This document shows positions 2 to 38,502 of a stretch of 40,204 nt of DNA, one piece after another. Each line of letters opens with the position of its first letter. The first letter of the stretch is position 1. The position numbers were made by a program, and so were the translations under genes. The notes under the pieces were generated by a model. It was not told the origin of the DNA and ran no database searches. It saw only the letters and a list, made by a program, of their open reading frames with translations. The stretch is from contig JAMOVK010000071.1 of NCBI GenBank assembly GCA_027067775.1, positions 1 to 40,204 of the forward strand. The letters run 5' to 3'. The DNA is from Deltaproteobacteria bacterium. Its GTDB lineage: Bacteria > Desulfobacterota > Dissulfuribacteria > Dissulfuribacterales > QOAL01.

Positions 2-694
2 ATGTCGAGGCTTATGGGCGGTATTGGCGGGAAAGGGCCCGGGGAAACCAAACTCGAGGTTGACAGAAGGCGAATAAAACAGCGTATTTCATCCCTTGAA
101 AGGTCCCTAAAGGAACTGTCAAAAAGAAGGGCACAGAGGCGCAAGAAGCGTAAAAGGGACATGGTTCCTGTTATATCAATCATTGGATATACCAACGCAG
201 GCAAATCAACCCTTCTGAACAGGCTTACAAAAAGCAGTGTGACAGTGGCTGACAAACTCTTTGCAACCCTTGACCCCTCTACCAGGCTGCTCTTTTTAAA
301 TGGTAAAAGGATCCTGCTTTCTGACACCGTGGGTTTCATAACCAACATGCCTTCAGACATCAAGCTTGCCTTTAAGGCAACTCTTGAAGAACTTGAGGAC
401 TCCCAGGCATTTATTCACGTTGTGGATGCATCAAGCCCCTTTATCCGTGAAGAGATAGAGGCCACAGAGGAGATACTGGATGAAATAGGATTGCTGGAAA
501 CCAAGCGGCTGCTGGTTTTGAACAAGTGTGACCTTCTTGATGATGAAAAGAGAAAAAAGGTCAAAAGAATAGACGGACTATTGGTTTCAGCACGCACTGG
601 CCTTGGGATAAAAGAACTTCTTGGTTCCGTAGAGGACCTGATTAACAGGAATGCGCCCTTACCGGCCTTTAATGCCATGGGAGGTGCAAGATGA
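2..694 (+). CDS. hflX: GTPase HflX, C-terminal part (cut by window edge)
   Basis: Ribosome-associated GTPase that splits stalled or hibernating 50S/70S ribosomes in other bacteria. The visible 230 residues begin inside the protein: the RLMGGIGGKGPGETKLE stretch is the glycine-rich linker that precedes the G domain in HflX, so the N-terminal domain lies left of base 1 and the first ATG seen here is internal. A basic coiled-coil linker (about residues 20-53) is followed by the P-loop GYTNAGKST (62-70), the G3 motif DTVGF and the G4 motif NKCD. It converges on rpe, leaving only 20 bases between the two stops. Family call is certain; completeness is not. Confidence 0.95.
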   Translation: MSRLMGGIGGKGPGETKLEVDRRRIKQRISSLERSLKELSKRRAQRRKKRKRDMVPVISIIGYTNAGKSTLLNRLTKSSVTVADKLFATLDPSTRLLFLNGKRILLSDTVGFITNMPSDIKLAFKATLEELEDSQAFIHVVDASSPFIREEIEATEEILDEIGLLETKRLLVLNKCDLLDDEKRKKVKRIDGLLVSARTGLGIKELLGSVEDLINRNAPLPAFNAMGGAR

Positions 695-3376: not shown

Positions 3377-3808
3377 TCAGGCCCCTATCTTCTCTTTTGC
3401 CCAGTCAAGGGCCTGTCTTACCCTTGGGGCAACCAGCTTTTTGGCCTCTTCGTAGCTGACCCATCTGTAGGCATCGTGTTCCGGTTTTCCTATCTCAGGG
3501 TTCACAGGAAGGGAGATGTCCTTTGTCTTGGTCTCGGCCAGATAGTATCGGGCGATCTTGCGGCCCCGGTTGTAAGGGCCTGTCTCCCTGTAATCGTAGC
3601 CCCATTTGAAATCAAGGTCGGTAATTGTTGTCTCTTCCCTTGTCTCCCTTTTGGCTGCTTCAATGGGGTCTTCTCCTGGCTCAACGATTCCCTTTGGGAA
3701 ATCCCAGTAACCATATGCCCTGAGCAGGAGAAACTTCCATTTACCATCGTCATCCTTTCTTACCACTATCACTCCTGCTGAAAGGATGGGCTTTTTGTGC
3801 TTTTTCAC
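3377..3808 (-). CDS. Nudix hydrolase (diadenosine-polyphosphate/mRNA-cap type)
   Basis: Small cytoplasmic Nudix protein of 143 aa. The Nudix box is visible from about residue 40: G-IVEPG-E then seven residues and RETREE, giving the metal-binding REUxEE core; the usual glycine near the end of the box is Thr (EETTI). The upstream SAGVIVVR strand and YWDFPKG are typical of bis(5'-nucleosyl)-tetraphosphatase-like members. Its ATG overlaps the stop of the RND pump gene by 4 bases, so it is translationally coupled to the efflux operon. Substrate unknown; a housecleaning role is the family default, not shown here. Confidence 0.9.
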   Translation of the reverse strand: MKKHKKPILSAGVIVVRKDDDGKWKFLLLRAYGYWDFPKGIVEPGEDPIEAAKRETREETTITDLDFKWGYDYRETGPYNRGRKIARYYLAETKTKDISLPVNPEIGKPEHDAYRWVSYEEAKKLVAPRVRQALDWAKEKIGA

Positions 3809-6800
3809 AGTACAAGCCTCTTTTCGTGGGTTATCCGGTAGTCAAGATAGTAGAGGACCGGGACCACCATTCGAGAAAAGATGGTGGCTGCCACCTCACC
3901 TGCCATCAGGGATATGGCAAGCCCTTGAAAGATCGGATCAAAAAGAATCACAAACGAACCCACCACTACTGCAGATGAAGTAAGAAGCATTGGCCTGAAC
4001 CTGATTGCACCTGCATCAATAACCGCCTCTTTTAATGACATGCCCTCGGCCAGCCTCAACTCTATAAAGTCAACAAGGATAATGGAGTTTCTCACAACAA
4101 TACCGGCACCTGCAATAAAACCTATCATGGAGGTTGCAGTAAAAAAGGCGTTCATCATGGCGTGCGCCGGAATGATTCCAATAAGGGACAAAGGAATAGG
4201 GGCAAGGATTACGAGGGGCACTGAGTAGGACTTGAACCAGCCTACCACCAGGATGTAAATAAGCACAATTACTACAGCAAAGGCAATACCCATGTCTCTA
4301 AAGACCTCGTAGGTGACCTGCCATTCACCGTCCCACTTCATCGCCCACTCATCAGGAGAAAAGGGCTGTGTGGTGTAATATATCTCTATTCCTGTCTTGC
4401 CGTCTGGGGTCCTAAGCTTTTCAAGGGCCTTGTTGGCCTTCAGGATTGCATAAACCGGACTTTCTTCCTCTCCAGAGACATCTCCTGTCACATAGACAAC
4501 CGGCTTTAGATTCTTGTGATAGATGGGATGGGGCCTTATAACATTTTCAACATGGGCAAGCTCTGAAAGAGAAACCATCTTGCCAGACATAGAACGGACC
4601 TTCATGGAGGCGAGGTCAAGGGCCCCGGTACGTTCGGCCCTTGGCAGTCTAACTACTATTGCCACATCCTCGGTTGCAGATGGCACATGCAAAAGCCCTA
4701 CCTGTGCACCTGCAACGTAGGCCCCAAGCACCTGCAGAACCCTTGCAGGAGGCACCCCAAGTTGAGCTGCCTTGTCCTTTTCCACCACAACCCGATACTC
4801 TGGCTGAGGATCGGTCATGTACCAGTCCACATCCACCACCCCTTCGGTGGTCTCAAAAATCTTCTTTATCTGTCTGGCAACCTCTATCTGTTTTTCATAA
4901 TCAGGCCCATAAACCTCTGCAACAAGGGTCTGAAGCACTGGTGGACCTGGAGGTATTTCAGCAACCTTTATCCTGGCGTCGTATTTCTTTGCCACCTCCT
5001 GCAACTTTGGCCTGAGCCTTTTGGCTATGTCATGACTCTGCTCGCTTCTTCTGTCCTTGGGCAGAAGATTTACCTGTATGTCTGCCACATTTGGCCCCTG
5101 TCTCAGGTAGTAGTGACGTACCAACCCGTTAAAGTTAAAAGGAGAGGCCGTGCCAATGTAAAGCTCGTAATCTGTCACCACCTTTTCCCTGTCCAGCACA
5201 TTTCCAAGGGCCTCTGCCACCCGGGCTGTCTGTTCTAAGGATGTCCCCTCTGGCATGTCAATGATCACCTGGAACTCGCTCTTGTTGTCAAAAGGAAGCA
5301 TCTTAACACGCACAACCTTGAAATAGATAAGGGAACATGCAAACAAAAACAGTATTGCCATTACCCCGAGAAAGAGCCAGCGATGGGTAACCTTGTCCAA
5401 CAGATGGCCCATGGCCCACCTGTAAATCTTGTCCAGCCATGTCTCTTCCTCTGTCTTTTCCTGTTCCTTTTTGCCAAGGATATGGTAGGCACTCCAGGGG
5501 GTAATGACAAAGGAGATGATCATGGAAAGAAACATGGCAACAGAGGCGCCCACAGGCATTGGCCTCATGTAAGGCCCCATGAGGCCTCTAACAAAGGCCA
5601 GGGGAAGGATGGCCACAATAACCGTGAAGGTGGCTAGAATAAGGGGACTGCCCACCTCTACAACGGCCTCTACAATTATGTCCTTGAGCGGACGACCCTT
5701 GTTAAAGGGCAGCCGCACATGGCGCACGATGTTTTCTACATCTACAATGGGATCGTCAACCAGAATACCTATGCAGAAAATAAGGGCAAAGAGGGTGACC
5801 CTGTTAAGGGTGTAGCCATGAAGATAGTAAATAAAGAGGGTAAAGGCCAGGGTGACCGGGATGGCCACAAGAACTACCAGACTTGCCCTTATGCCAAGAA
5901 GTAGTGCCATGAGTATGGCAACAGAGATTGTGGCTATTGCCAGATGTTCAAGCAGCTCGTTAGACTTTTCCTTGGCAGTTTCGCCATAGTTCCTGGTTAT
6001 TACATATCTGACATCTTCTGGAAGGATGAAGCCCTTTACCGCCTCCACCTTCCTTATAACCTCATTGGCAAGAAAGGTGGCGTTCCAGCCCTTTCTCTTG
6101 GCAACAGCTATGGTGACAGCGGGCTTGAGACCACCTGGGGTAAAATCCACTCCTGGCTTTTCCTTGTGGCCAGCCCCAGCACCTATCAAGACGTAAGATT
6201 CGGGTTCCTCAGGCCCATCCATTATCTGGGCAATCTGTCCAAGACGGACAACCTTGCCATTTACCACCTTGACCACTGCCTGACGCACATCTTCCTTAGA
6301 AGAGAAAAAGTTGTTAAGCCTCAGGGAAAAGGCCTTGTTGTCCTTGGTTATATCGGCTATCCAAGATGCCTGGTTCTGGAAAGAAAGGGCCTGAATGACA
6401 TCGGCTGGGTCAAGGCCCAGGCTGGACAGGGCCTCCTGCTTCAAATTTACCCGAAGCTGGCGCCTAAGCCCGCCCTTTAAAAAGGTCTCACTGATGCCTG
6501 GAATCTGCTTTATTTCTTCCCTAAGCCTACTGGCCAGCTGCCTGAGCTGCAGACTGCTGTACCCATCTCCCCAAAGGGTGAGGCACACAATGGGAACGTC
6601 ATCTATGGAGTGAAGTTTTAAGAGGGGTTTGCTGCAGCCTGGAGGAATCCAGTCAAAATGCGAATAAAGCTTGTCATAGGTCTTAAGGAGGCTGTCTTCA
6701 GTATCCTCCCCCACATAGAAACGCACAACCGTTAGCGCCTGTCCATCCATTGCAGTAGAGTAGACATACTCCACCCCTGGAATCTCCCAAAGCAGACGCT

Positions 6801-11723: not shown

Positions 11724-12653
11724 ATGAAGAAATTGCCCAAAATATTTAAATCAAGAGCCGCATGGGGTGAGTACTTTGAATTGAAACGAACGGAAGAACC
11801 ACATGTGCATCAGATTGAGCCTACAAATTACTGTCCCTATAGTTGCATGATGTGCCCACGTACAAATCATATGACACGAGATACAGGTTTTATGCAGTTG
11901 GATCTATACCGTAAAATCATTGATGAAATAGATACATTTCAAGAACCTATCAGATCCAAAGAAATAGAACTTTTTCATTTTGGAGAGTCGTTAATACACC
12001 CTAGGCTACCCGAGATGATAGCTTATGCATCAGGGAAGGGACTAAACATGGTTCTCTCCATTAATCCCCCCAGTCTCAACAGGAAAAAAATACATGATAT
12101 TTTAGATGCCAAACCTAGCAAGATCATCCTTTCACTGGATGGTCATGATAGTACAAGCTATAGGAAAATCAGGGGAAAGCGGGCTGATTATGACAAAGCA
12201 CTTGAAAATATAAAGATACTGCTTGCCTATCATAAAAAGATAAAATCAGAGATCAAGCTCATTATCCGAATGATTGAATTTAATCTTAACACTGCTTATA
12301 CAGAGAAGTTCAAAATGCAGTGGCAAAGAGAAGGGCTTGATGTGGAGATACGAGAATTTTTTCCATGGACAAAAAAGGAAATGGTGAAATTGGGTAAAGT
12401 TCGAAAGTGGAGACCTTACATGCCATGTCCTTTTCCTTGGCAATATGTGGCCATTCAATATAATGGTGATGTTGTTCCCTGCTGCCGGGACTATAATGGT
12501 GTCAATAGAATCATGAATGTAAAAGACCATACATTAAAAGAGATTTGGAATTCTGAAAAATATGCTTCTTTTAGAAGACAGCATATTACCGGAAATTATA
12601 CTGGTAATGATTTTTGTAAAGAGTGTATGGATATTTATTATTGCGAAGAATGA
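11724..12653 (+). CDS. Radical SAM protein with SPASM-like C-terminus
   Basis: A 309-aa radical S-adenosylmethionine enzyme. The cluster motif is CPYSCMMC (Cys 37, 41, 44; CX3CX2C), followed by the GE motif region FHFGESLIHP. The C-terminal quarter carries further cysteines in a SPASM/twitch pattern (MPCPFPWQ, GDVVPCCRDY, DFCKECMDIYYC) that usually bind auxiliary iron-sulfur clusters; SPASM proteins modify peptides, sugars or other small substrates. Substrate unknown. Bases are AT-rich like the acylation genes facing it; its stop is only 3 bases from that of the 47-aa membrane protein. Its leader is the left inverted repeat, which suggests shared control with the convergent operon. Confidence 0.88.
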   Translation: MKKLPKIFKSRAAWGEYFELKRTEEPHVHQIEPTNYCPYSCMMCPRTNHMTRDTGFMQLDLYRKIIDEIDTFQEPIRSKEIELFHFGESLIHPRLPEMIAYASGKGLNMVLSINPPSLNRKKIHDILDAKPSKIILSLDGHDSTSYRKIRGKRADYDKALENIKILLAYHKKIKSEIKLIIRMIEFNLNTAYTEKFKMQWQREGLDVEIREFFPWTKKEMVKLGKVRKWRPYMPCPFPWQYVAIQYNGDVVPCCRDYNGVNRIMNVKDHTLKEIWNSEKYASFRRQHITGNYTGNDFCKECMDIYYCEE

Positions 12654-12656
12654 AAA

Positions 12657-12800
12657 TTATAAATGTAAATAAAGAAAGTCCGCCTTGTCAACATAGACCG
12701 ATAACAGGATGATAAGAATGATGAGGAATGCATACCAAAGACTCACAAGCACTTTTGCAAGAGGAGGATTTAGCTTTTTAAGTAAGAAACGATACATCAT
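12657..12800 (-). CDS. 47-aa single-pass membrane protein, DltX-like (candidate)
   Basis: A short gene six bases after the MBOAT stop, with AAGGA before tandem ATGs (12800 and 12797). The product has a basic cytoplasmic N-terminus (MMYRFLLKKLNPPLAK), one hydrophobic segment (VLVSLWYAFLIILIILLSVYV) and a short outward tail ending exactly in DFLYLHL. Gram-positive DltX, a protein of about 50 aa in dlt operons, has the same topology and as I recall ends in an aromatic FIYNEF-like tail whose tyrosine has been proposed to carry the acyl group between DltB and DltD; F-L-Y-x-x-L at the very C-terminus fits that pattern. Position next to MBOAT, SGNH, ligase and carrier genes supports the reading. The functional assignment is inference. 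Confidence 0.72.
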   Translation of the reverse strand: MMYRFLLKKLNPPLAKVLVSLWYAFLIILIILLSVYVDKADFLYLHL

Positions 12801-12806
12801 AATTCC

Positions 12807-13931
12807 TTAGTAATTTAAGTGCAAAAGCTGCAAAAAAAGAGTCCTGATCTTAAAACTAAAAACAACAAAATGTAACGTAAGTAGAACAGAAAAAAGATAG
12901 AAAATTTTTGTAGAAGCCAGTCTATCTATGGCCATATATTTGACTTTGATATATTGGAATTTATGCCATATTGCAATACCCAGTGCATGATACATTCCCC
13001 AAACAATATAATTGAATGAAAACTCATGCCAGAGACCAAAAATAACGAGACTGACCAATATTGACAGGAAAGGTTTCCGGGTAAGTGAGACAAGGGGTAT
13101 GTACACATAATCTTTGATCCATGTGGATAAAGATATATGCCATCTTTGCCAAAACTCAGATATATTTTTTGCCAAAAAGGGATAGTTGAAGTTTTCCATG
13201 ATTTTGAATCCCATAAGGCGTGAGAAACCTATGGCGATATCTGAGTAACCGGAGAATTGAAAATAAAGATTGAACCAGTATGCAAAAGGTGAAAGATATA
13301 TGTATAAGTAATGATTTGTTGTTTTAATGTGTTGGATATAGTCAAGAAATTTGATTTCAATAAGGTAAGCGGCAATAATAATAATCTTAGCATAACCATA
13401 CAATATTCTTTCTAATCCGTAAGATATATTTAAATTTTTTATATCTCTTTTTTTTAGATCATCGTAAAAGGGCTGAAATCTATGTATAGGACCGACAATA
13501 AATGTTGGCAAAAAGAAGAGGTAGGTTAAATAGTCTCTAAAGGTGTGTTTCGGTAATTTTTGCTTATAACCTTCAAAAACATAATGAATTATTCTAAAGC
13601 TGTAAAAGGATAAGCCCAAAGGCATGATATATTTAGAAGCATGCACTGTTGTAGCAATTTTATAGACCACTAAGACCCCAGAGACAATTAGTATGATTAC
13701 TAAAATGGATTGTGTTTTAAATGAGTATTGACGGGGTATTAAGTAACTCGCTACAGACAGTGTCAGTAGTATCAGTAATGAGTCCGTAGCATAATAGCCC
13801 AAAAAAGCTATTGATAAAACCATTACTCCAGACATTGCTATTTTCTTTGGAAAAACCCACGAGATACATACAAGTAAGACCAGTATAAATATGACGTATG
13901 GTGACAGGTATGGTGATGAGGAAATATGCAC
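12807..13931 (-). CDS. MBOAT membrane O-acyltransferase (DltB/AlgI-like)
   Basis: Polytopic inner-membrane acyltransferase of 374 aa with about ten hydrophobic segments. MBOAT signatures are complete: FLPTFIVGPIHRF (about 141-152), the AKNISEFWQRWHISLSTWIKD stretch (with His 265) and GLWHEF with the presumed catalytic His 302, then the YHALGIAIW helix. DltB and AlgI homologues pass acyl groups from a cytoplasmic thioester donor across the membrane. Start is a GTG seven bases after the SGNH gene stop, with a poor ribosome binding site, suggesting translational coupling. It sits between the SGNH gene and the 47-aa protein, as expected for an envelope-acylation operon. Slightly shorter than AlgI (about 500), close to DltB (about 400). 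Confidence 0.93.
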   Translation of the reverse strand: MHISSSPYLSPYVIFILVLLVCISWVFPKKIAMSGVMVLSIAFLGYYATDSLLILLTLSVASYLIPRQYSFKTQSILVIILIVSGVLVVYKIATTVHASKYIMPLGLSFYSFRIIHYVFEGYKQKLPKHTFRDYLTYLFFLPTFIVGPIHRFQPFYDDLKKRDIKNLNISYGLERILYGYAKIIIIAAYLIEIKFLDYIQHIKTTNHYLYIYLSPFAYWFNLYFQFSGYSDIAIGFSRLMGFKIMENFNYPFLAKNISEFWQRWHISLSTWIKDYVYIPLVSLTRKPFLSILVSLVIFGLWHEFSFNYIVWGMYHALGIAIWHKFQYIKVKYMAIDRLASTKIFYLFSVLLTLHFVVFSFKIRTLFLQLLHLNY

Positions 13932-13937
13932 TTTGAA

Positions 13938-14747
13938 CTATTGTTTTATAAATTGCTTAATTTGATCTATGAAAAAATTTGAAATTATTTCCTGTCCTTT
14001 AGGATTGGCATGCGCATAATCATAATAGTATGAAGCGGGAAGTTGTGGAGAAAAGGTAATGGTTTGTATATTGTATTTATCTTGATAGTATTTAATCAAT
14101 TTTTTTTCATGCAAAATAAATTTTTCAGGAAAATATTTTTGGGCCTCTTGTGCACGAGTAAAATCAAGAAGAAAGACTAAAATATGATGCTTTTTGGCAT
14201 ACTCTAAAAATGTTTCCAGTGATGGAGATAACTTTTTTCGAAGATGAAAATATTGAAGATTTTTTTGCCAATCTTCCAATGTTTTACGTTGCTTTCTTCG
14301 ATTAAGAGGCTTAGTGGGCATAGAAACCAACGTTCTTAAAAAATATTTTATATCTCTTATTCTGGCTTTTAAAATTGATTTTGGTCGATAAAAAACTAAT
14401 GAAGTATCTAAAAAAACTATATCTGGCCTATGACAACACATTTGTTTAAATAATGCATTAAAATGGTAAAGAGTTCTGCCACTATAAGAGAATTTTATGA
14501 AATTCAAGTTGTTAATGCCTTTGCTTTTGGCTAAACTATTCATCACCTTATCTGGATAAAGTGCATATCTTGTTAATGAAGTGCCAATGGCTATCACGTT
14601 TATTTTATTAGCATCAATTTTTCCCAACTTTTTATGAAAAAGATACGCCTCTTTTTTTTGGACAGCAAAGCTTACCATTCCAAAAAAGATGATAACTATT
14701 AAAATGCTACAGATCCAAACAGAAAGAGGAGGACTGGTATCATTCAC
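13938..14747 (-). CDS. Membrane-anchored SGNH-type (DltD-like) acyl transferase/esterase
   Basis: A 269-aa protein with one N-terminal membrane anchor (about residues 9-28) and the rest predicted periplasmic. The SGNH block I is IAIGTSLTR with the nucleophile Ser 57; block V is DYAHANPKG, giving Asp 243 and His 246 of the D-x-x-H pair. This matches the topology and catalytic layout of DltD and of the SGNH partners of MBOAT proteins, though it is shorter than DltD (about 400). The GTG start overlaps the ligase-carrier stop as GTGA, with AGGA nine bases upstream; an ATG lies four bases further on. Likely the enzyme that places the acyl group on the final envelope acceptor, which is unknown. Confidence 0.82.
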   Translation of the reverse strand: MNDTSPPLSVWICSILIVIIFFGMVSFAVQKKEAYLFHKKLGKIDANKINVIAIGTSLTRYALYPDKVMNSLAKSKGINNLNFIKFSYSGRTLYHFNALFKQMCCHRPDIVFLDTSLVFYRPKSILKARIRDIKYFLRTLVSMPTKPLNRRKQRKTLEDWQKNLQYFHLRKKLSPSLETFLEYAKKHHILVFLLDFTRAQEAQKYFPEKFILHEKKLIKYYQDKYNIQTITFSPQLPASYYYDYAHANPKGQEIISNFFIDQIKQFIKQ

Positions 14748-16534
14748 AATATTTTTTCCTTGATAATCTGAATAATATCGTCCAAGTCTTCAATTTTCAT
14801 CATTTCTACAGTACTAAAAGCAATATTATAGTGTGATTCAAGCAGAGCGATAAATTCTAAATGTCCCAGAGAATCCCATGCACTAATTGTGTCCGGAGAT
14901 GATGTTCTATTGATCTGTTCAAGGGGAACAAAAAAATGCTTAGAGGCTAATTTGAAGATTTCCTTCTCTAGTGATAATTTTTCGGCCTGTATGCCATCAA
15001 GCATCTTTCTAAGTTCAGGTATAATAACCTTCCCGCTTCTACCTCTGGGAAGTGTTTTGACAAAATGGATTTTTTTGGGAACTTTGTACGGTTCAAGATG
15101 TTCTCTGCAGTATTCCATGATGCTAATCTTATCAAGCTTATGCTCTTTCTTCACAATCACTGCGATAATCTCTTCGCCCCATGTAGGATGAGGAATACCA
15201 AAAACAACCGATTCTTGAATAAGGGGATGTGTATTAAGCAGGGTAGTGATTTCTTCGGGATATACGGTAAAGCCCCCGGTTAAAATTACATTCTTTATCC
15301 TTCCTGCAATGGTAAAAATCCCTTCTTTTTGATAGGCAAGGTCTCCTGTATGCAACCAACCATCTCTAAGAACCTTTAGGGTAGCCTCCTCATTTTTATA
15401 ATACCCTTTCATGATGTTGGTTCCCGAAAGCAATAGTTCCCCTACTTGCCCATCCTCTAATTCGTTACCATGCTTATCAACTATTTTTGCCTGGCAATCT
15501 ACAGGAGTGCCTATGGTGCCAATGTGTTTTGGATTACCCGGTCTGGTAAAAAGTCCTCCTGCCACACTTTCAGTAAGTCCGTATACGTTAATAATATTTT
15601 TCTTGAAGGTTTGTTGAAAATCGTTCCATAAGGGGGCCTCTAACAGTGCTCCAGCCGAACCGATGGTCGTTAGAGAACTTTTCTGAACAAGTGCTGCATA
15701 CTCTTTTCCAAATTGATTGATTAAGGATAGCATGGTTGGTGTCGTAATAAAATGTGTTACACTTCTATCATGTATATAGTGTAATATCTTTTCAATCTTA
15801 TTAATTTTAAACCTAAAAGGACGATGAAGCGGAATATTTGAAAAAAAAGAGAGTACAGGCCCCTGTATGATACCATCGGCATGGGAAAGCTCCAAAATAT
15901 TGAATATGTGAGAACCGTTATCAAGCTGATATACTTTTTGTAGAGTTTTAAGATGTTCGCTCAAGTTGAAATAGCTTATTTCAACACCTTTGGGCTCAGA
16001 GGTTGTTCCTGAAGTAAAAAGTACATACGCAGTATCATGTATGTCTGAGCGAAAATTTGCTTGGGTTCTTGTTGCGGTAGATATTGTTTGAAAGTAATTT
16101 TTGTGTTTAGATGAAATTCTTGTAAATCCTGTGAAGAATTTATGAAATAAACTGTTTTTATCTGGATTTTCTATAGTATAAATTGTATATTGAGACGGAT
16201 TTTGTATGTCTTGAATATGAGCTTTATCAATAAAAAATATGGTTGGCTCAAAGAGTTCTAATATACTATTTAATCTAAGTTTTTTTGTTTTTCTGTCGAT
16301 AACGGTTACGGTAATGCCATTAAATATAGCAGATAAGAAGAGTAATGATGTTTCAAGATCATTATCACTCATGATTGCAATTCTGTCATCTTTTTGAAGC
16401 CTCTGTCTCTTGAACAAGGCTGTAATCTTTTCAATCTTTTTAATAGCATCTTTATATGTTAAAATATGACCTTTACCAACATAGAATGGTCTATCATCAA
16501 TTGATTTAGTATTAATATGGAGTAGATTGTCCAT
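14744..16534 (-). CDS. Acyl-AMP ligase fused to a C-terminal acyl carrier domain
   Basis: ANL-superfamily adenylating enzyme of about 596 aa. Core motifs are intact: LFTSGTTSEPKGV (P-loop-like), NVYGLTES, GWLHTGDL, GRIKNVILTGGFTVYPEEI and the catalytic Lys motif PRGRSGK. After the ligase, the last 75 or so residues form a carrier domain with the phosphopantetheine site SAWDSLGHLEF (Ser about 555 from the chosen start). The fusion joins the roles of DltA and DltC in one chain: activate an acid and hold it as thioester for the MBOAT. I chose the ATG at 16534 with AGGAG ten bases upstream; a TTG at 16540 is possible. It overlaps the upstream ligase gene by about 23 bases. Acyl substrate unknown. 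Confidence 0.9.
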   Translation of the reverse strand: MDNLLHINTKSIDDRPFYVGKGHILTYKDAIKKIEKITALFKRQRLQKDDRIAIMSDNDLETSLLFLSAIFNGITVTVIDRKTKKLRLNSILELFEPTIFFIDKAHIQDIQNPSQYTIYTIENPDKNSLFHKFFTGFTRISSKHKNYFQTISTATRTQANFRSDIHDTAYVLFTSGTTSEPKGVEISYFNLSEHLKTLQKVYQLDNGSHIFNILELSHADGIIQGPVLSFFSNIPLHRPFRFKINKIEKILHYIHDRSVTHFITTPTMLSLINQFGKEYAALVQKSSLTTIGSAGALLEAPLWNDFQQTFKKNIINVYGLTESVAGGLFTRPGNPKHIGTIGTPVDCQAKIVDKHGNELEDGQVGELLLSGTNIMKGYYKNEEATLKVLRDGWLHTGDLAYQKEGIFTIAGRIKNVILTGGFTVYPEEITTLLNTHPLIQESVVFGIPHPTWGEEIIAVIVKKEHKLDKISIMEYCREHLEPYKVPKKIHFVKTLPRGRSGKVIIPELRKMLDGIQAEKLSLEKEIFKLASKHFFVPLEQINRTSSPDTISAWDSLGHLEFIALLESHYNIAFSTVEMMKIEDLDDIIQIIKEKIL

Positions 16535-18020
16535 TATCAATTAACTCCTGTTTGAGTTTTTTACGATTAATTTTTCCATAGTTTCCAACCGGTAACGAAG
16601 ATACAATCCATATCCGCGATAATGTTTTTGTAGGACTGAGTTTGTCTCGTATTTTTTGATTAATGGATTTCAAAATATGGTGAGTATCAAAAAGATTTTC
16701 TTTTAGAGTAATAGCAGCACCTATCTTAATGATGCCATTTAGCGTTGTATAATCAAATACACAGCATTGGGATATGTACGAAAATTCTAAGATTATTGTT
16801 TCTATTTCCTGTGGAAATACCAATTCTGTATATTCATTGTTAAATGCATCATCATATCTACCATATAAATTAACAGATCCATCAGGGTTTAAACCCGCTA
16901 AATCCATAGTTTTAAACCATCCTTCTTTATCAATGACTTTCTGTGTTAGTTCCTGTTCCTTATAGTATCCCAACATATTATTTCCTCTTATTTTGAGTAC
17001 TCCGATCTGGGATCTATCAAAATGATCATCAACAGATGTATCAATTTTTATTTCGCAAGATAAAGGAAATCCTATGGATTGAGGTATGTCTGTAGAATGT
17101 TTGGGTGTCTGTCCAATACATATACCCGTAGTTTCTGTCAATCCATAGTAATTGTAAATCGGGACTGAGAAATGTTTTGAAAATGTTTTTGCCATCTCTA
17201 CTGAAAGCCAGTTGCCCGTTGACATAATATAGCGTAACGATTGAAATTTATCGGAAGATATTTTGTGTTTAAAAAGATTGATCTGTTTAATCAATACAGG
17301 CGAAGTCAGAAGTATAGTGGCCTTGAGACGATAGATAATGTCAATAATCTCCAAAAAAGAAGCTTGTTTGCTGTAATCAAGATATATAAATGAACTTTCA
17401 GATAAAAGAGGGACAATAAAACTATTTCTAATACCACTCACTGTATGTATGGGTGCAAGATTCAAAATTTTATCTTTGGTTGTCCATTGATAATTTTCGA
17501 AAACAATCTTGGCGCTTTTGAATAGGTTGTTATTTGATAGCATGACGCCTTTTGGTTTTCCAGTGGAACCCGAAGTATATAGAATAACAGACATTTCATC
17601 AGCCTTACGCTCTGCTGATATGGAGAGAATGCCTTCTTGTCTTTTATAGTTAATTTCCGATTCGGATAGATGAACAATTGTTTTCTTTTGATCTAATGAA
17701 GAACCAATATATATCTTTGCATGGGTTCTATCAAGAATATCCATTACAATATCTTTTGGATAATGAACGTCGATAGGTATATATACTAAATCGAGTAGCT
17801 GCGTCGCATAAAAAAGTGTTATTAAAATTAATTGGTTATTAGATTGTATGACGACTTTATCACCTCTTTTCAGCTCATACTGTTCAAGCTGGCAAGCAAG
17901 TGCATAGGCCATTTGATAGATTTCAGCAAAGGTAAACGAGATATCTGACGAAAACAGTGCTTTTTGAGGGGAATACTTTGTTCTCTGGATTAGATTTAGA
18001 AGATAATTGGCCTTAGCCAT
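16512..18020 (-). CDS. Stand-alone acyl-AMP ligase (AMP-binding family)
   Basis: First gene of the island's minus-strand operon, 502 aa. ANL motifs: LYTSGSTGKPKGV (148-159), NYYGLTET, GWFKTMDLAG where the usual TGD reads TMD, GRYDDAFN, and NYGKINRKK with the catalytic Lys about 483. It lacks a carrier domain. The size and motifs resemble amino-acid or acyl adenylating enzymes that load a separate carrier, as DltA does; the carrier could be the one fused to the next gene. ATG has GGAG a few bases upstream (TTGGAGTACC). Its leader is the right inverted repeat, ending 30 bases before the start codon. Codon use is strongly AT-rich. Substrate unknown. Confidence 0.9.
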   Translation of the reverse strand: MAKANYLLNLIQRTKYSPQKALFSSDISFTFAEIYQMAYALACQLEQYELKRGDKVVIQSNNQLILITLFYATQLLDLVYIPIDVHYPKDIVMDILDRTHAKIYIGSSLDQKKTIVHLSESEINYKRQEGILSISAERKADEMSVILYTSGSTGKPKGVMLSNNNLFKSAKIVFENYQWTTKDKILNLAPIHTVSGIRNSFIVPLLSESSFIYLDYSKQASFLEIIDIIYRLKATILLTSPVLIKQINLFKHKISSDKFQSLRYIMSTGNWLSVEMAKTFSKHFSVPIYNYYGLTETTGICIGQTPKHSTDIPQSIGFPLSCEIKIDTSVDDHFDRSQIGVLKIRGNNMLGYYKEQELTQKVIDKEGWFKTMDLAGLNPDGSVNLYGRYDDAFNNEYTELVFPQEIETIILEFSYISQCCVFDYTTLNGIIKIGAAITLKENLFDTHHILKSINQKIRDKLSPTKTLSRIWIVSSLPVGNYGKINRKKLKQELIDNGQSTPY

Positions 18021-35200: not shown

Positions 35201-36400
35201 ATGATACCTACCAGGTTAATAACAAGAATATTCGAAGCCGCCAGCATACAGAGATGGAATGACCATGTGCGTCCTGTTGAACTGACTGAGCTAGACAAGC
35301 AGGCGCATAAGATGCTTATCGCCTACATGCTTGCAAGATTTCAGGAACAGATCCAGGAAACAGACTGGCTGCTTTTAATAGAGGGAGGCTTTTTTGAGTT
35401 TCTCCAAAGGGTGGTTCTCACCGATATCAAACCGCCGGTTTTTCACTACCTTATGAAAAAGGCAGGAAGGCAGCTTAACCACTACGTTATACAGCAGCTA
35501 GAGCCTGAACTGTCAGGTATAGCCAGCCTTGCCACCGGCCGCCCGATACTGGATGAGATGAGAATCTATCTGGAAGATCAAGACTACGCAGCAAGGGAAA
35601 AGCGCATCCTGAGTGCAGCCCATTATCTTGCCACCAAATGGGAATTTGAACTGGTTTACAACGCATTTCCAAAGATGTACGGCATTCAGGAGACCAAAAG
35701 AGAGATAGAAGACAAGATCGAAGACTACTATGAACTGTCAGGGGTCCAAAAAATACTCCTCGGAGGCAAGTCCCACCATTTTGTTGACCTTCTTAGCCAG
35801 CTGAGATTTCAAAAGAGATGGTCCAAGACCCCCAGGATACCCCAAACCACAGTTTTGGGACACATGCTTGTTGTGGCAATATTTGCTTATCTTCTCACTC
35901 CCTTGTGCACCAAAAACCCATGCAGGAAACGTCTTTACAACAACTTTTTTTCAGCCCTGTTTCATGACCTACCAGAGGTCTACACAAGAGACATAATTTC
36001 ACCGGTAAAACGGAAGGTTGCCGGTCTTGATCAGGTAATACTCGAATATGAAAAGAAAAAACTTGAGGAAAAGATACTGCCCCTTTTACCTGCTTCCTGG
36101 CAAAGAGAACTGGTCTACTTTCTTGAGAACCAGTTTAAAAACAGGATCATAGAAAATGGGCGATGCAAGGTTGTGCAGGAAATAAAAGACCATATGAATA
36201 AGGATGAATTTTCTCCAGTTGATGGTGCTGTGGTAAAAATAGCAGACGAGATGGCAGCATACTGGGAGGCTGAAATTTCCCTTTCACATGGTATCCGGTC
36301 TCCCCACCTGGAAGAGGCCATATCTGCACTCAAGGCCAAATATGAAAACCACAGCAAGCTATCGGGCATATTCTGCCCAAAGGAAAAGGACTATTCGTAG
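35201..36400 (+). CDS. HD-domain phosphohydrolase-like protein (YfbR type)
   Basis: About 399 aa with the chosen start. HD-superfamily metal ligands appear as TTVLGHMLVV (His) and ALFHDLPEVYTRDIISPVKRK (His-Asp), the layout of YfbR-like 5'-nucleotidase domains, with a later KIADEMAAYWEA providing a further Asp. The N-terminal half, with IQRWNDHVRPVELTELDKQAHKM, is conserved-looking but of unknown role. The ATG at 35201 has GGAGG seven bases upstream; an earlier in-frame ATG at 35147 has none. Converges on the STT3 gene with a 10-base overlap of coding ends. Substrate unknown. Confidence 0.85.
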   Translation: MIPTRLITRIFEAASIQRWNDHVRPVELTELDKQAHKMLIAYMLARFQEQIQETDWLLLIEGGFFEFLQRVVLTDIKPPVFHYLMKKAGRQLNHYVIQQLEPELSGIASLATGRPILDEMRIYLEDQDYAAREKRILSAAHYLATKWEFELVYNAFPKMYGIQETKREIEDKIEDYYELSGVQKILLGGKSHHFVDLLSQLRFQKRWSKTPRIPQTTVLGHMLVVAIFAYLLTPLCTKNPCRKRLYNNFFSALFHDLPEVYTRDIISPVKRKVAGLDQVILEYEKKKLEEKILPLLPASWQRELVYFLENQFKNRIIENGRCKVVQEIKDHMNKDEFSPVDGAVVKIADEMAAYWEAEISLSHGIRSPHLEEAISALKAKYENHSKLSGIFCPKEKDYS

Positions 36401-38502
36401 CTGTCTGCCTTTACCTTCCATATCTGAAAAAACGGCGTCTTCAGTTCCACTGGTTCAAAATAGGCAGTCTGAAACCGATGCCTCAAAAAGAGCTTGTTAA
36501 ATACAGATTCTGCTATATTGGGACTCATTAGTGCAGAATATCCCCCTGGCATAATCTCTAAATGATAGCCTCTGGCTACAGGGAAGATCTTTTTTTCAAG
36601 CCTGTCCTTGTATCTGATGTAAAGTGCCCTAAGGGGAACTGCGCGTCCTTCAAGATAGGCTATGCCTTTTTTCAAGTCGGCCTTAAGGGGATGACCGTTA
36701 CTCTGGATGGCCGTTACAACATCTCCATCTATCTTCGTGTTGTAAAAGGCTACATAGGTTGGATGAACGCCATTGTGAATAGCTGGATCCCAGGTACCAA
36801 GCCAGAACCACCAGTAGTTGGTAACGGTCAGTCTCCAGTCAGTAAAAAGATATACAGGCCGGGTCTGTTTTGGAAAAAAGAAGTGCAGCCAGTCTTCTAC
36901 GCTTACAATCCCCTTTTGTGGCTTCAATCCAGAAGAGGCCACAATCCTTTCAGCGTTTACAGGACCAGCTGCCAGCACCTCCTTGATAAGCCTAAACCCT
37001 TTGGTTGTGTTGCCTCCAAGGGCATGGTACACAAGATGGGTACCCTTATTGATACCCCTATGCACAAAGAAATTCATTAGATTTGCAGCAAGTCGCTCAC
37101 TGGATGTGGCATAGGGTATGCCGTTAAATACAGACCTTTCACCACCATGCACCTGACCATCGTTAATCGTTGCCCTTCTGGACCAGTAGATCATTGGATA
37201 TCCATGATCCCACCAGGCCCATACCACAGAGTTTGCCGGGGTCTTTCTGGATATCTCAACCATGCCTTTTACAAGAAAGGGGGGTTCCTTGGGCCAAAAA
37301 GTCTTTGCAAAACCCCTTTGGACTGACGGATATATAAGGATTCCAACAAGCAGGGCGATAACTGACAGTCTGACTGCAAGAGCCGTCTGCCTGTTTTTCA
37401 GAAAATGATAGACCTCAAAAATGATGCACCCTATGCCAAGGGCCAGGGTTGGGGCGAGAAATATCAAAAATCTCTTTGCAAAAAAGAAGGAAAGGCCGCT
37501 TAGTATCAAGGGTACGGCCAGATAGAGTGCCTTTATCCGGTGGCGATAAAAAAGAAACAAAAGCCCAATAAGACCTGTTGAGAATGCCAGGATGCTGTCG
37601 GTTGTCTTGGCTATTATCTCTCCAAGTTTTGGAATGGCCTGTTCTGAAATAGAGATGCCTATGTTGGGAAAATCTCCAGCAACCTCCTTGGAGATATACT
37701 TGTAAAGGGTGGCTATCTGCTGCACAGACTTTATAGGAAGGGCGGCTCCTTTTAACAAGAGCAGTGCTGCTCCGCCAATGGCCAGGACTGTTAAAAATAT
37801 GCCTCCCTCTGTCTTGGCGGGCCTGTAGAAAAACACCATTGCAACAGCCATTGGCAAAAGGGCGATGGCTGTTGCCACCTGTGGGGTCTGATCCCACCAC
37901 CACATAAAAAAGAGATAGTTTACAAGGGCTCCCAAAAACCACAGGTAACGTATCCGACTGGTGGTCTGTCCAAATTTTAGGGCAAAAAATACGGCAAACA
38001 TGGCAAAGGTGACGTTCATGCAGTCTGTATCAAACCAGCCAAGACTGCTTCTGTAGACGTAATAAAAGGACATAAGAGAAAAAAAACCGGCAACACACCC
38101 CATAATAGGACCGCCATAGTAACGCCCTATTCCATAAACGGGTAAAAAAAGCACAAGACCAAGGACAGCAGGAGTGACCGCCGCTATCCAGTTAAAGGAA
38201 ATACCGGTAACCTTGTGTATGGCAAATGCAATGGAAGAAAGAAGCGGCGGCGGTTGGGGCCTTGGCGGACAATCAGGTACTGCCCTTTTTTCATCAATGG
38301 GTTTGTAGACGGCTTCTGAAAGATCCCTTGCAAGGGTCAGATAGTAATAGCCGTCAAAGGTGGTAAGAAGGGGCTCTGATTTGAAAAAGGCCCTGTCAGG
38401 CTGGGCCTTCCAGTCTTTTAGGTCTTCTATCCTGACAAGGAAGGCTGCACAAAGAATAAGTACAATAAACGCTGCCTCTAACCATCTGTTGTTTAAAAAC
38501 AA
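36391..38502 (-). CDS. STT3/PglB-type oligosaccharyltransferase
   Basis: A 703-aa protein with about twelve or thirteen membrane segments and a C-terminal periplasmic domain. The OST signatures are visible: an acidic residue in LTTFDGYYYL (Asp about 50), the second acidic motif GWFDTDCMN, and the catalytic WWDHG (about 430; WWDYG in PglB), the latter reading VVWAWWDHGYPMIYWSRRA. This family transfers lipid-linked glycans to Asn of exported proteins. TTG start with GGGAGG six bases upstream; it follows glnE by 30 bases on the same strand. No glycan-synthesis genes adjoin it in the window. Confidence 0.92.
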   Translation of the reverse strand: MFLNNRWLEAAFIVLILCAAFLVRIEDLKDWKAQPDRAFFKSEPLLTTFDGYYYLTLARDLSEAVYKPIDEKRAVPDCPPRPQPPPLLSSIAFAIHKVTGISFNWIAAVTPAVLGLVLFLPVYGIGRYYGGPIMGCVAGFFSLMSFYYVYRSSLGWFDTDCMNVTFAMFAVFFALKFGQTTSRIRYLWFLGALVNYLFFMWWWDQTPQVATAIALLPMAVAMVFFYRPAKTEGGIFLTVLAIGGAALLLLKGAALPIKSVQQIATLYKYISKEVAGDFPNIGISISEQAIPKLGEIIAKTTDSILAFSTGLIGLLFLFYRHRIKALYLAVPLILSGLSFFFAKRFLIFLAPTLALGIGCIIFEVYHFLKNRQTALAVRLSVIALLVGILIYPSVQRGFAKTFWPKEPPFLVKGMVEISRKTPANSVVWAWWDHGYPMIYWSRRATINDGQVHGGERSVFNGIPYATSSERLAANLMNFFVHRGINKGTHLVYHALGGNTTKGFRLIKEVLAAGPVNAERIVASSGLKPQKGIVSVEDWLHFFFPKQTRPVYLFTDWRLTVTNYWWFWLGTWDPAIHNGVHPTYVAFYNTKIDGDVVTAIQSNGHPLKADLKKGIAYLEGRAVPLRALYIRYKDRLEKKIFPVARGYHLEIMPGGYSALMSPNIAESVFNKLFLRHRFQTAYFEPVELKTPFFQIWKVKADSYE

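Follow-up and report, generated by a model that had tools for sequence, protein, structure and literature searches.

The window analysed here, a 40,204-nt stretch of contig JAMOVK010000071.1 from a deltaproteobacterium, contains a short open reading frame (ORF) directly behind an MBOAT gene, which raises the question of whether this frame is a gene and what its product would do for the neighbouring enzyme. The ORF, on the minus strand at 12657-12800, is translated as MMYRFLLKKLNPPLAKVLVSLWYAFLIILIILLSVYVDKADFLYLHL (47 aa). The stop codon of the MBOAT gene is located at 12807-12809, leaving a gap of 6 nt to the ORF. The product, here designated X, has a basic N-terminal stretch (R, K, K, K), followed by a single hydrophobic helix and then DFLYLHL. 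These features, together with the AAGGA ahead of the start, had been listed in a preliminary description of the locus, and all of them are present. The same description placed the start at 12800; the ORF does open there, but the conserved start lies one Met later. The sequence 5' of the start reads AAGGAATT-ATG-ATG, and since the relatives of X have the N-terminus MYxFL, the second Met (12797; 46 aa) appears the likelier start. The spacing of AAGGA also suits this Met better than the first. From the conserved start, X spans 12657..12797 (minus strand, 46 aa) and is predicted to be a DltX-like acyl-shuttle microprotein with the shuttle motif FLYLHL (Phe codon 12675-12677, Tyr codon 12669-12671). 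A scan for promoters and terminators gave nothing beyond shuffled sequence.

Ten relatives of X were found in at least three bacterial groups, making 11 X proteins with that of the window. Eight of the loci were retrieved by searches with the MBOAT or with the SGNH protein or its profile, without using X, and are those among the retrieved loci whose MBOAT gene is complete at its 3' end. They belong to the window's phylum (L112/L115, L116 and L132), to the order of a gammaproteobacterium (L032, L135, L136 and L137) and to the Rhodospirillales (L031). All eight have X where the MBOAT gene ends, within -8 to +8 nt of the stop, and a search with an X profile added two further loci (L142 and L143). 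In the alignment of the 11 proteins, the only invariant columns are W21, F41 and Y43, and the C-terminus lies exactly three residues past the Tyr in every case, with a variable last residue (L, V, I, M or Q). The preliminary description had made its reading depend on a conserved short ORF with a terminal Tyr in homologous operons, and this comparison came out in its favour, the Tyr being kept in 11/11.

Nucleotide substitutions were compared within two pairs of X genes. Between L116 and L132, 21 of 34 substitutions fall at third codon positions (dN 0.16 versus dS 1.31); between L031 and L142, the figures are 23 of 46 (dN 0.26 versus dS 2.74). This excess at third positions is that expected of coding sequence. 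In addition, among the 8455 six-frame ORFs of 25-90 aa from the window and 80 related loci, no more than 10 (0.12%) have a terminal F-x-Y-x-x-x, a count in which the true X genes are included. The X ORF is a real gene, and chance is excluded; both the gene and its conservation are observed directly. Neither X nor its profile matched a known family in Pfam, NCBIfam or the PDB sequences. Against 395 genomes of the window's phylum, the profile reached E <1e-16 only in three genomes that carry the operon, and the next match had E 1e-4. Two candidates were rejected, one in G235 (E 1e-4) that lies inside an unrelated 539-aa frame and one in G835 (E 0.003) that has no adjoining MBOAT. The operon is scattered in the phylum, being present in 3 of the 395 sampled genomes and in three more from a search of one order, and occurs also in alpha- and gammaproteobacterial orders; an MBOAT search of eight genomes of the same genus did not find it. 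This patchy distribution is consistent with horizontal spread.

X is the last gene of a tightly packed operon on the minus strand, in the order AMP-ligase, AMP-ligase with carrier domain, SGNH protein, MBOAT and X, wherein the two ligase genes overlap and the carrier-ligase and SGNH genes overlap by 4 nt. The MBOAT (12807..13931, minus strand, 374 aa) is DltB-like and lacks a fused C-terminal motif. It matches PF03062, its best fold match is DltB, and a profile of the split MBOATs, those accompanied by X, had DltB as its sole match in the PDB (E 4e-54). His302 in WHE (codon 13026-13028) and His265 in RWH (codon 13137-13139) are invariant in the MBOAT alignment. The next gene (13938..14747, minus strand) encodes a predicted SGNH transferase with one N-terminal membrane helix. 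The protein matched no Pfam family, but its AF2 model (pTM 0.60, built from two sequences) matches SGNH/GDSL hydrolases (TesA, Z 12.7; PatB, Z 9.9), and Ser57 (codon 14577-14579), Asp243 (14019-14021) and His246 (14010-14012) are kept throughout the aligned homologues. The carrier-bearing ligase (14744..16540, minus strand) has a C-terminal ACP-like domain at about residues 522-598, with an invariant Ser557 in WDSL (codon 14870-14872). In the window this domain scores under the Pfam PP-binding cut-off (12.8 versus 20.8 bits), whereas the homologues in L116 and L031 are above it (22.4 and 29.4 bits). The second AMP-ligase (16512..18020, minus strand) stands alone. For ligase P0004, the nearest solved structure is oxalyl-CoA synthetase; for ligase P0005, they are NRPS A-domains and acyl-CoA ligases. 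The operon and its conserved catalytic residues are, like the gene itself, direct observations.

Every complete MBOAT examined is either split, with X, or fused, and this architecture can be read off directly. The 102 long MBOATs (at least 440 aa) without exception terminate in [FS][ILV]Y-x-x-F, whereas the 11 short MBOATs of the operon (about 374-411 aa) all lack the fused motif and all have X. In the window, X lies in the MBOAT frame two codons past the stop, and a virtual MBOAT-X read-through was used as a modelling device only. In a plain alignment of this read-through with the fused MBOATs, X falls on their last helix and hexapeptide. An unrooted tree of 58 MBOATs groups the 11 split ones in one clade (100/99) and DltB in another (100/100), and a branch with support 99/96 parts these two from the fused MBOATs. 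The neighbourhoods also differ. An AMP-ligase is near 10/10 assessable split MBOATs, L142 being left out because its contig ends at the MBOAT, versus within 5.5 kb of 1/74 fused ones (one-sided p about 4e-12, in a comparison where related loci are not independent). Meanwhile, an acidobacterial locus (L068), whose placement was unstable between two builds of the MBOAT tree, contains a 41-aa membrane peptide ending in FIYVDF (141-266, plus strand) just upstream of a short MBOAT (397 aa) without the fused motif, at the end of the contig; it is possibly another split lineage.

We therefore consider it probable, at about 80%, that X serves as the acyl-shuttle subunit in an MBOAT/SGNH machine for envelope acylation that is fed by a carrier protein. 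We infer the transfer steps, the formation of acyl-Tyr and the kind of substrate as follows. An AMP-ligase would activate a small carboxylic acid and attach it to the carrier domain via the phosphopantetheine. The MBOAT, via its invariant His, would take the acyl group from the carrier thioester and pass it through the membrane onto the X Tyr (F-L-Y*-L-H-L), and the periplasmic tail of X would then swing to the SGNH protein and hand the group to its Ser, after which the SGNH protein would esterify an envelope glycan. X would thus provide what other MBOATs have at their own C-terminus, a final helix with the hexapeptide. Because the conserved X ends in the tyrosine motif by which known systems carry an acyl group over the membrane, a bacterium with an outer membrane appears to use a relay of the DltX type in a pathway that looks different from D-alanylation; that the organism is diderm is indicated by its outer-membrane efflux set.

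The resemblance to Dlt nevertheless has to be weighed. X is about as long as DltX (about 45-50 aa) and shares with it a basic N-terminus, one membrane helix and a C-terminal F-x-Y, and it likewise goes together with an MBOAT of the DltB type, a carrier protein and an SGNH protein. The operon could accordingly be a diverged genuine Dlt system, with X as DltX, one of the ligases as DltA and D-alanine as the acyl group; the identical parts list, the position of the split-MBOAT clade beside DltB and the weak matches of P0005 to DltA models (131-138 bits) would fit this. However, we regard it as unlikely. PF12459 (DltX) matched neither the window's X nor its 10 relatives, whereas the B. subtilis and L. 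lactis controls did match; in the window's own genome it gave only matches below the cut-off, none of them at the X locus. All curated DltA and DltB cut-offs are missed, the MBOAT scoring 188 bits against TIGR04091 (DltB; equivalog cut-off 375) and the ligases 131 versus 559.85 and 138 versus 476 bits against DltA models. The A4 motif of DltA (F-D-L-S-V) is kept in neither ligase, the solved structure nearest to P0004 is not a DltA, and the host is diderm. The A-domain yielded no substrate assignment; a shifted alignment sets an Asp of P0004 opposite the DltA Asp, at a place where the alignment is gapped. The X gene follows the MBOAT gene in place of preceding dltA, its helix has an invariant Trp, and its last residue is not Phe, so that F-x-Y of the published FXYXXF is kept in 11/11 proteins and the terminal Phe is absent; the SGNH proteins of the operon are about 270-310 aa. 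Since X fails PF12459 and lacks the terminal Phe, and since the ligases are not DltA, X is not classed as DltX. The term non-Dlt used in the preliminary description holds in that no member of the operon passes a curated Dlt cut-off, but less so for the parts list, which is Dlt-like.

A DltX search of 40 genomes of the GTDB class reached through L059 found none. Bona fide DltX for comparison was taken from plasmid records, and a plasmid search with the L115 SGNH protein gave no match. Gram-negative dlt genes are known in Dickeya, as a D-Ala system (PMC3544676). On a small Ligilactobacillus plasmid (L149), a DltB relative (3698-4885, plus strand) follows the gene for the bacteriocin bactofencin A, without other dlt genes.

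The fused systems of the PatA/PatB and AlgI type bear on how X may act. They share with the operon the C-terminal acyl-shuttle hexapeptide with invariant Tyr, the catalytic His of the MBOAT and the SGNH partner; in contrast to it, their motif lies within the MBOAT (450-530 aa) and their donor is acyl-CoA, a ligase or carrier being nearby in just 1/74 here. Auto-acetylation of the motif Tyr has been shown in PatA, PatB accepts the acetyl group from the acetylated PatA peptide, and DltX is described as relaying D-Ala likewise between DltB and DltD (PMC12148441). These results also argue against the view that X is a structural membrane subunit which joins the MBOAT and SGNH proteins while its tail docks in the MBOAT unacylated. 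The invariant Trp of the helix would suit such a binding role. In the AF2 model of the MBOAT-X read-through, the MBOAT and the single helix of X are supported (helix pLDDT about 82) and the last seven residues of X have pLDDT <50, which leaves the position of the tail undefined and is compatible with docking. However, it is precisely F and Y that are invariant at the extreme C-terminus, and X stands in for a motif that in PatA is acylated on its Tyr (PMC12148441), which makes a purely structural role improbable.

A radical SAM/SPASM protein is encoded beside X (11724..12653, plus strand), convergent with the operon here, whereas in G318, G408, G454 and G437 its gene opens the operon. It is present in 6/6 operon-bearing genomes of the phylum at 56-57% identity, and is therefore more conserved than the MBOAT (about 39%). 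At that level it was found in 0/17 checked relatives without the operon, with one weak match of 30%. The protein is a probable partner of the operon in the window's phylum. SPASM enzymes often modify short peptides, and the gene accompanies the operon in all six genomes, but that X is a RiPP-like substrate of this protein is highly improbable, as X also occurs in the alpha- and gammaproteobacterial operons, which lack the radical SAM/SPASM gene, the tail of X should sit outside the cytoplasm, and X is tied to the MBOAT in all cases.

Returning to X as an acyl shuttle, an acyl-Tyr relay is already on record for non-Dlt systems, whose MBOATs carry the motif themselves (PMC12148441). The earlier expectation that a relay peptide here would generalise the mechanism was thus anticipated by work on fused MBOATs, and what appears new, against the papers surveyed, is a separate relay peptide outside Dlt. 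A statement of 2025 holds that non-Dlt MBOAT/SGNH pathways have neither a DltX-like microprotein nor a carrier protein (PMC12148441); the present operon, having both a microprotein and a carrier domain, contradicts it. With X, the acyl-shuttle systems gain a microprotein family that had no annotation. The operon also suggests a testable rule, in which carrier-fed MBOATs use a separate shuttle peptide and CoA-fed MBOATs a fused motif. The natural, independent combinations of X, MBOAT and SGNH protein would be useful for parting docking from acyl transfer. The findings further suggest that diderm bacteria have an envelope modification not yet described. A bolder reading, for which we would claim somewhat less than even odds, is that carrier-fed envelope MBOATs are a lineage of their own with Dlt as one branch, wherein the shuttle is always a separate microprotein, and that in the diderm branch another acid is put on an envelope glycan, a radical SAM/SPASM enzyme helping to make or modify this acid in one phylum; this would be an undescribed modification pathway.

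In G408, polysaccharide genes (Polysacc_synt_2, Wzz) precede the operon, which is consistent with an envelope glycan as acceptor. Other neighbours vary. The operon of L137 (4831-7604, minus strand; G691) adjoins a type IV pilin-like gene and includes a sulfotransferase and a beta-lactamase-family protein, and that of L136 (5422-7219, plus strand; G489) contains two different SGNH-like genes in tandem. The window itself also carries, at 36391-38502 on the minus strand, a gene for an STT3/PglB-type oligosaccharyltransferase (PF02516, PF21436).
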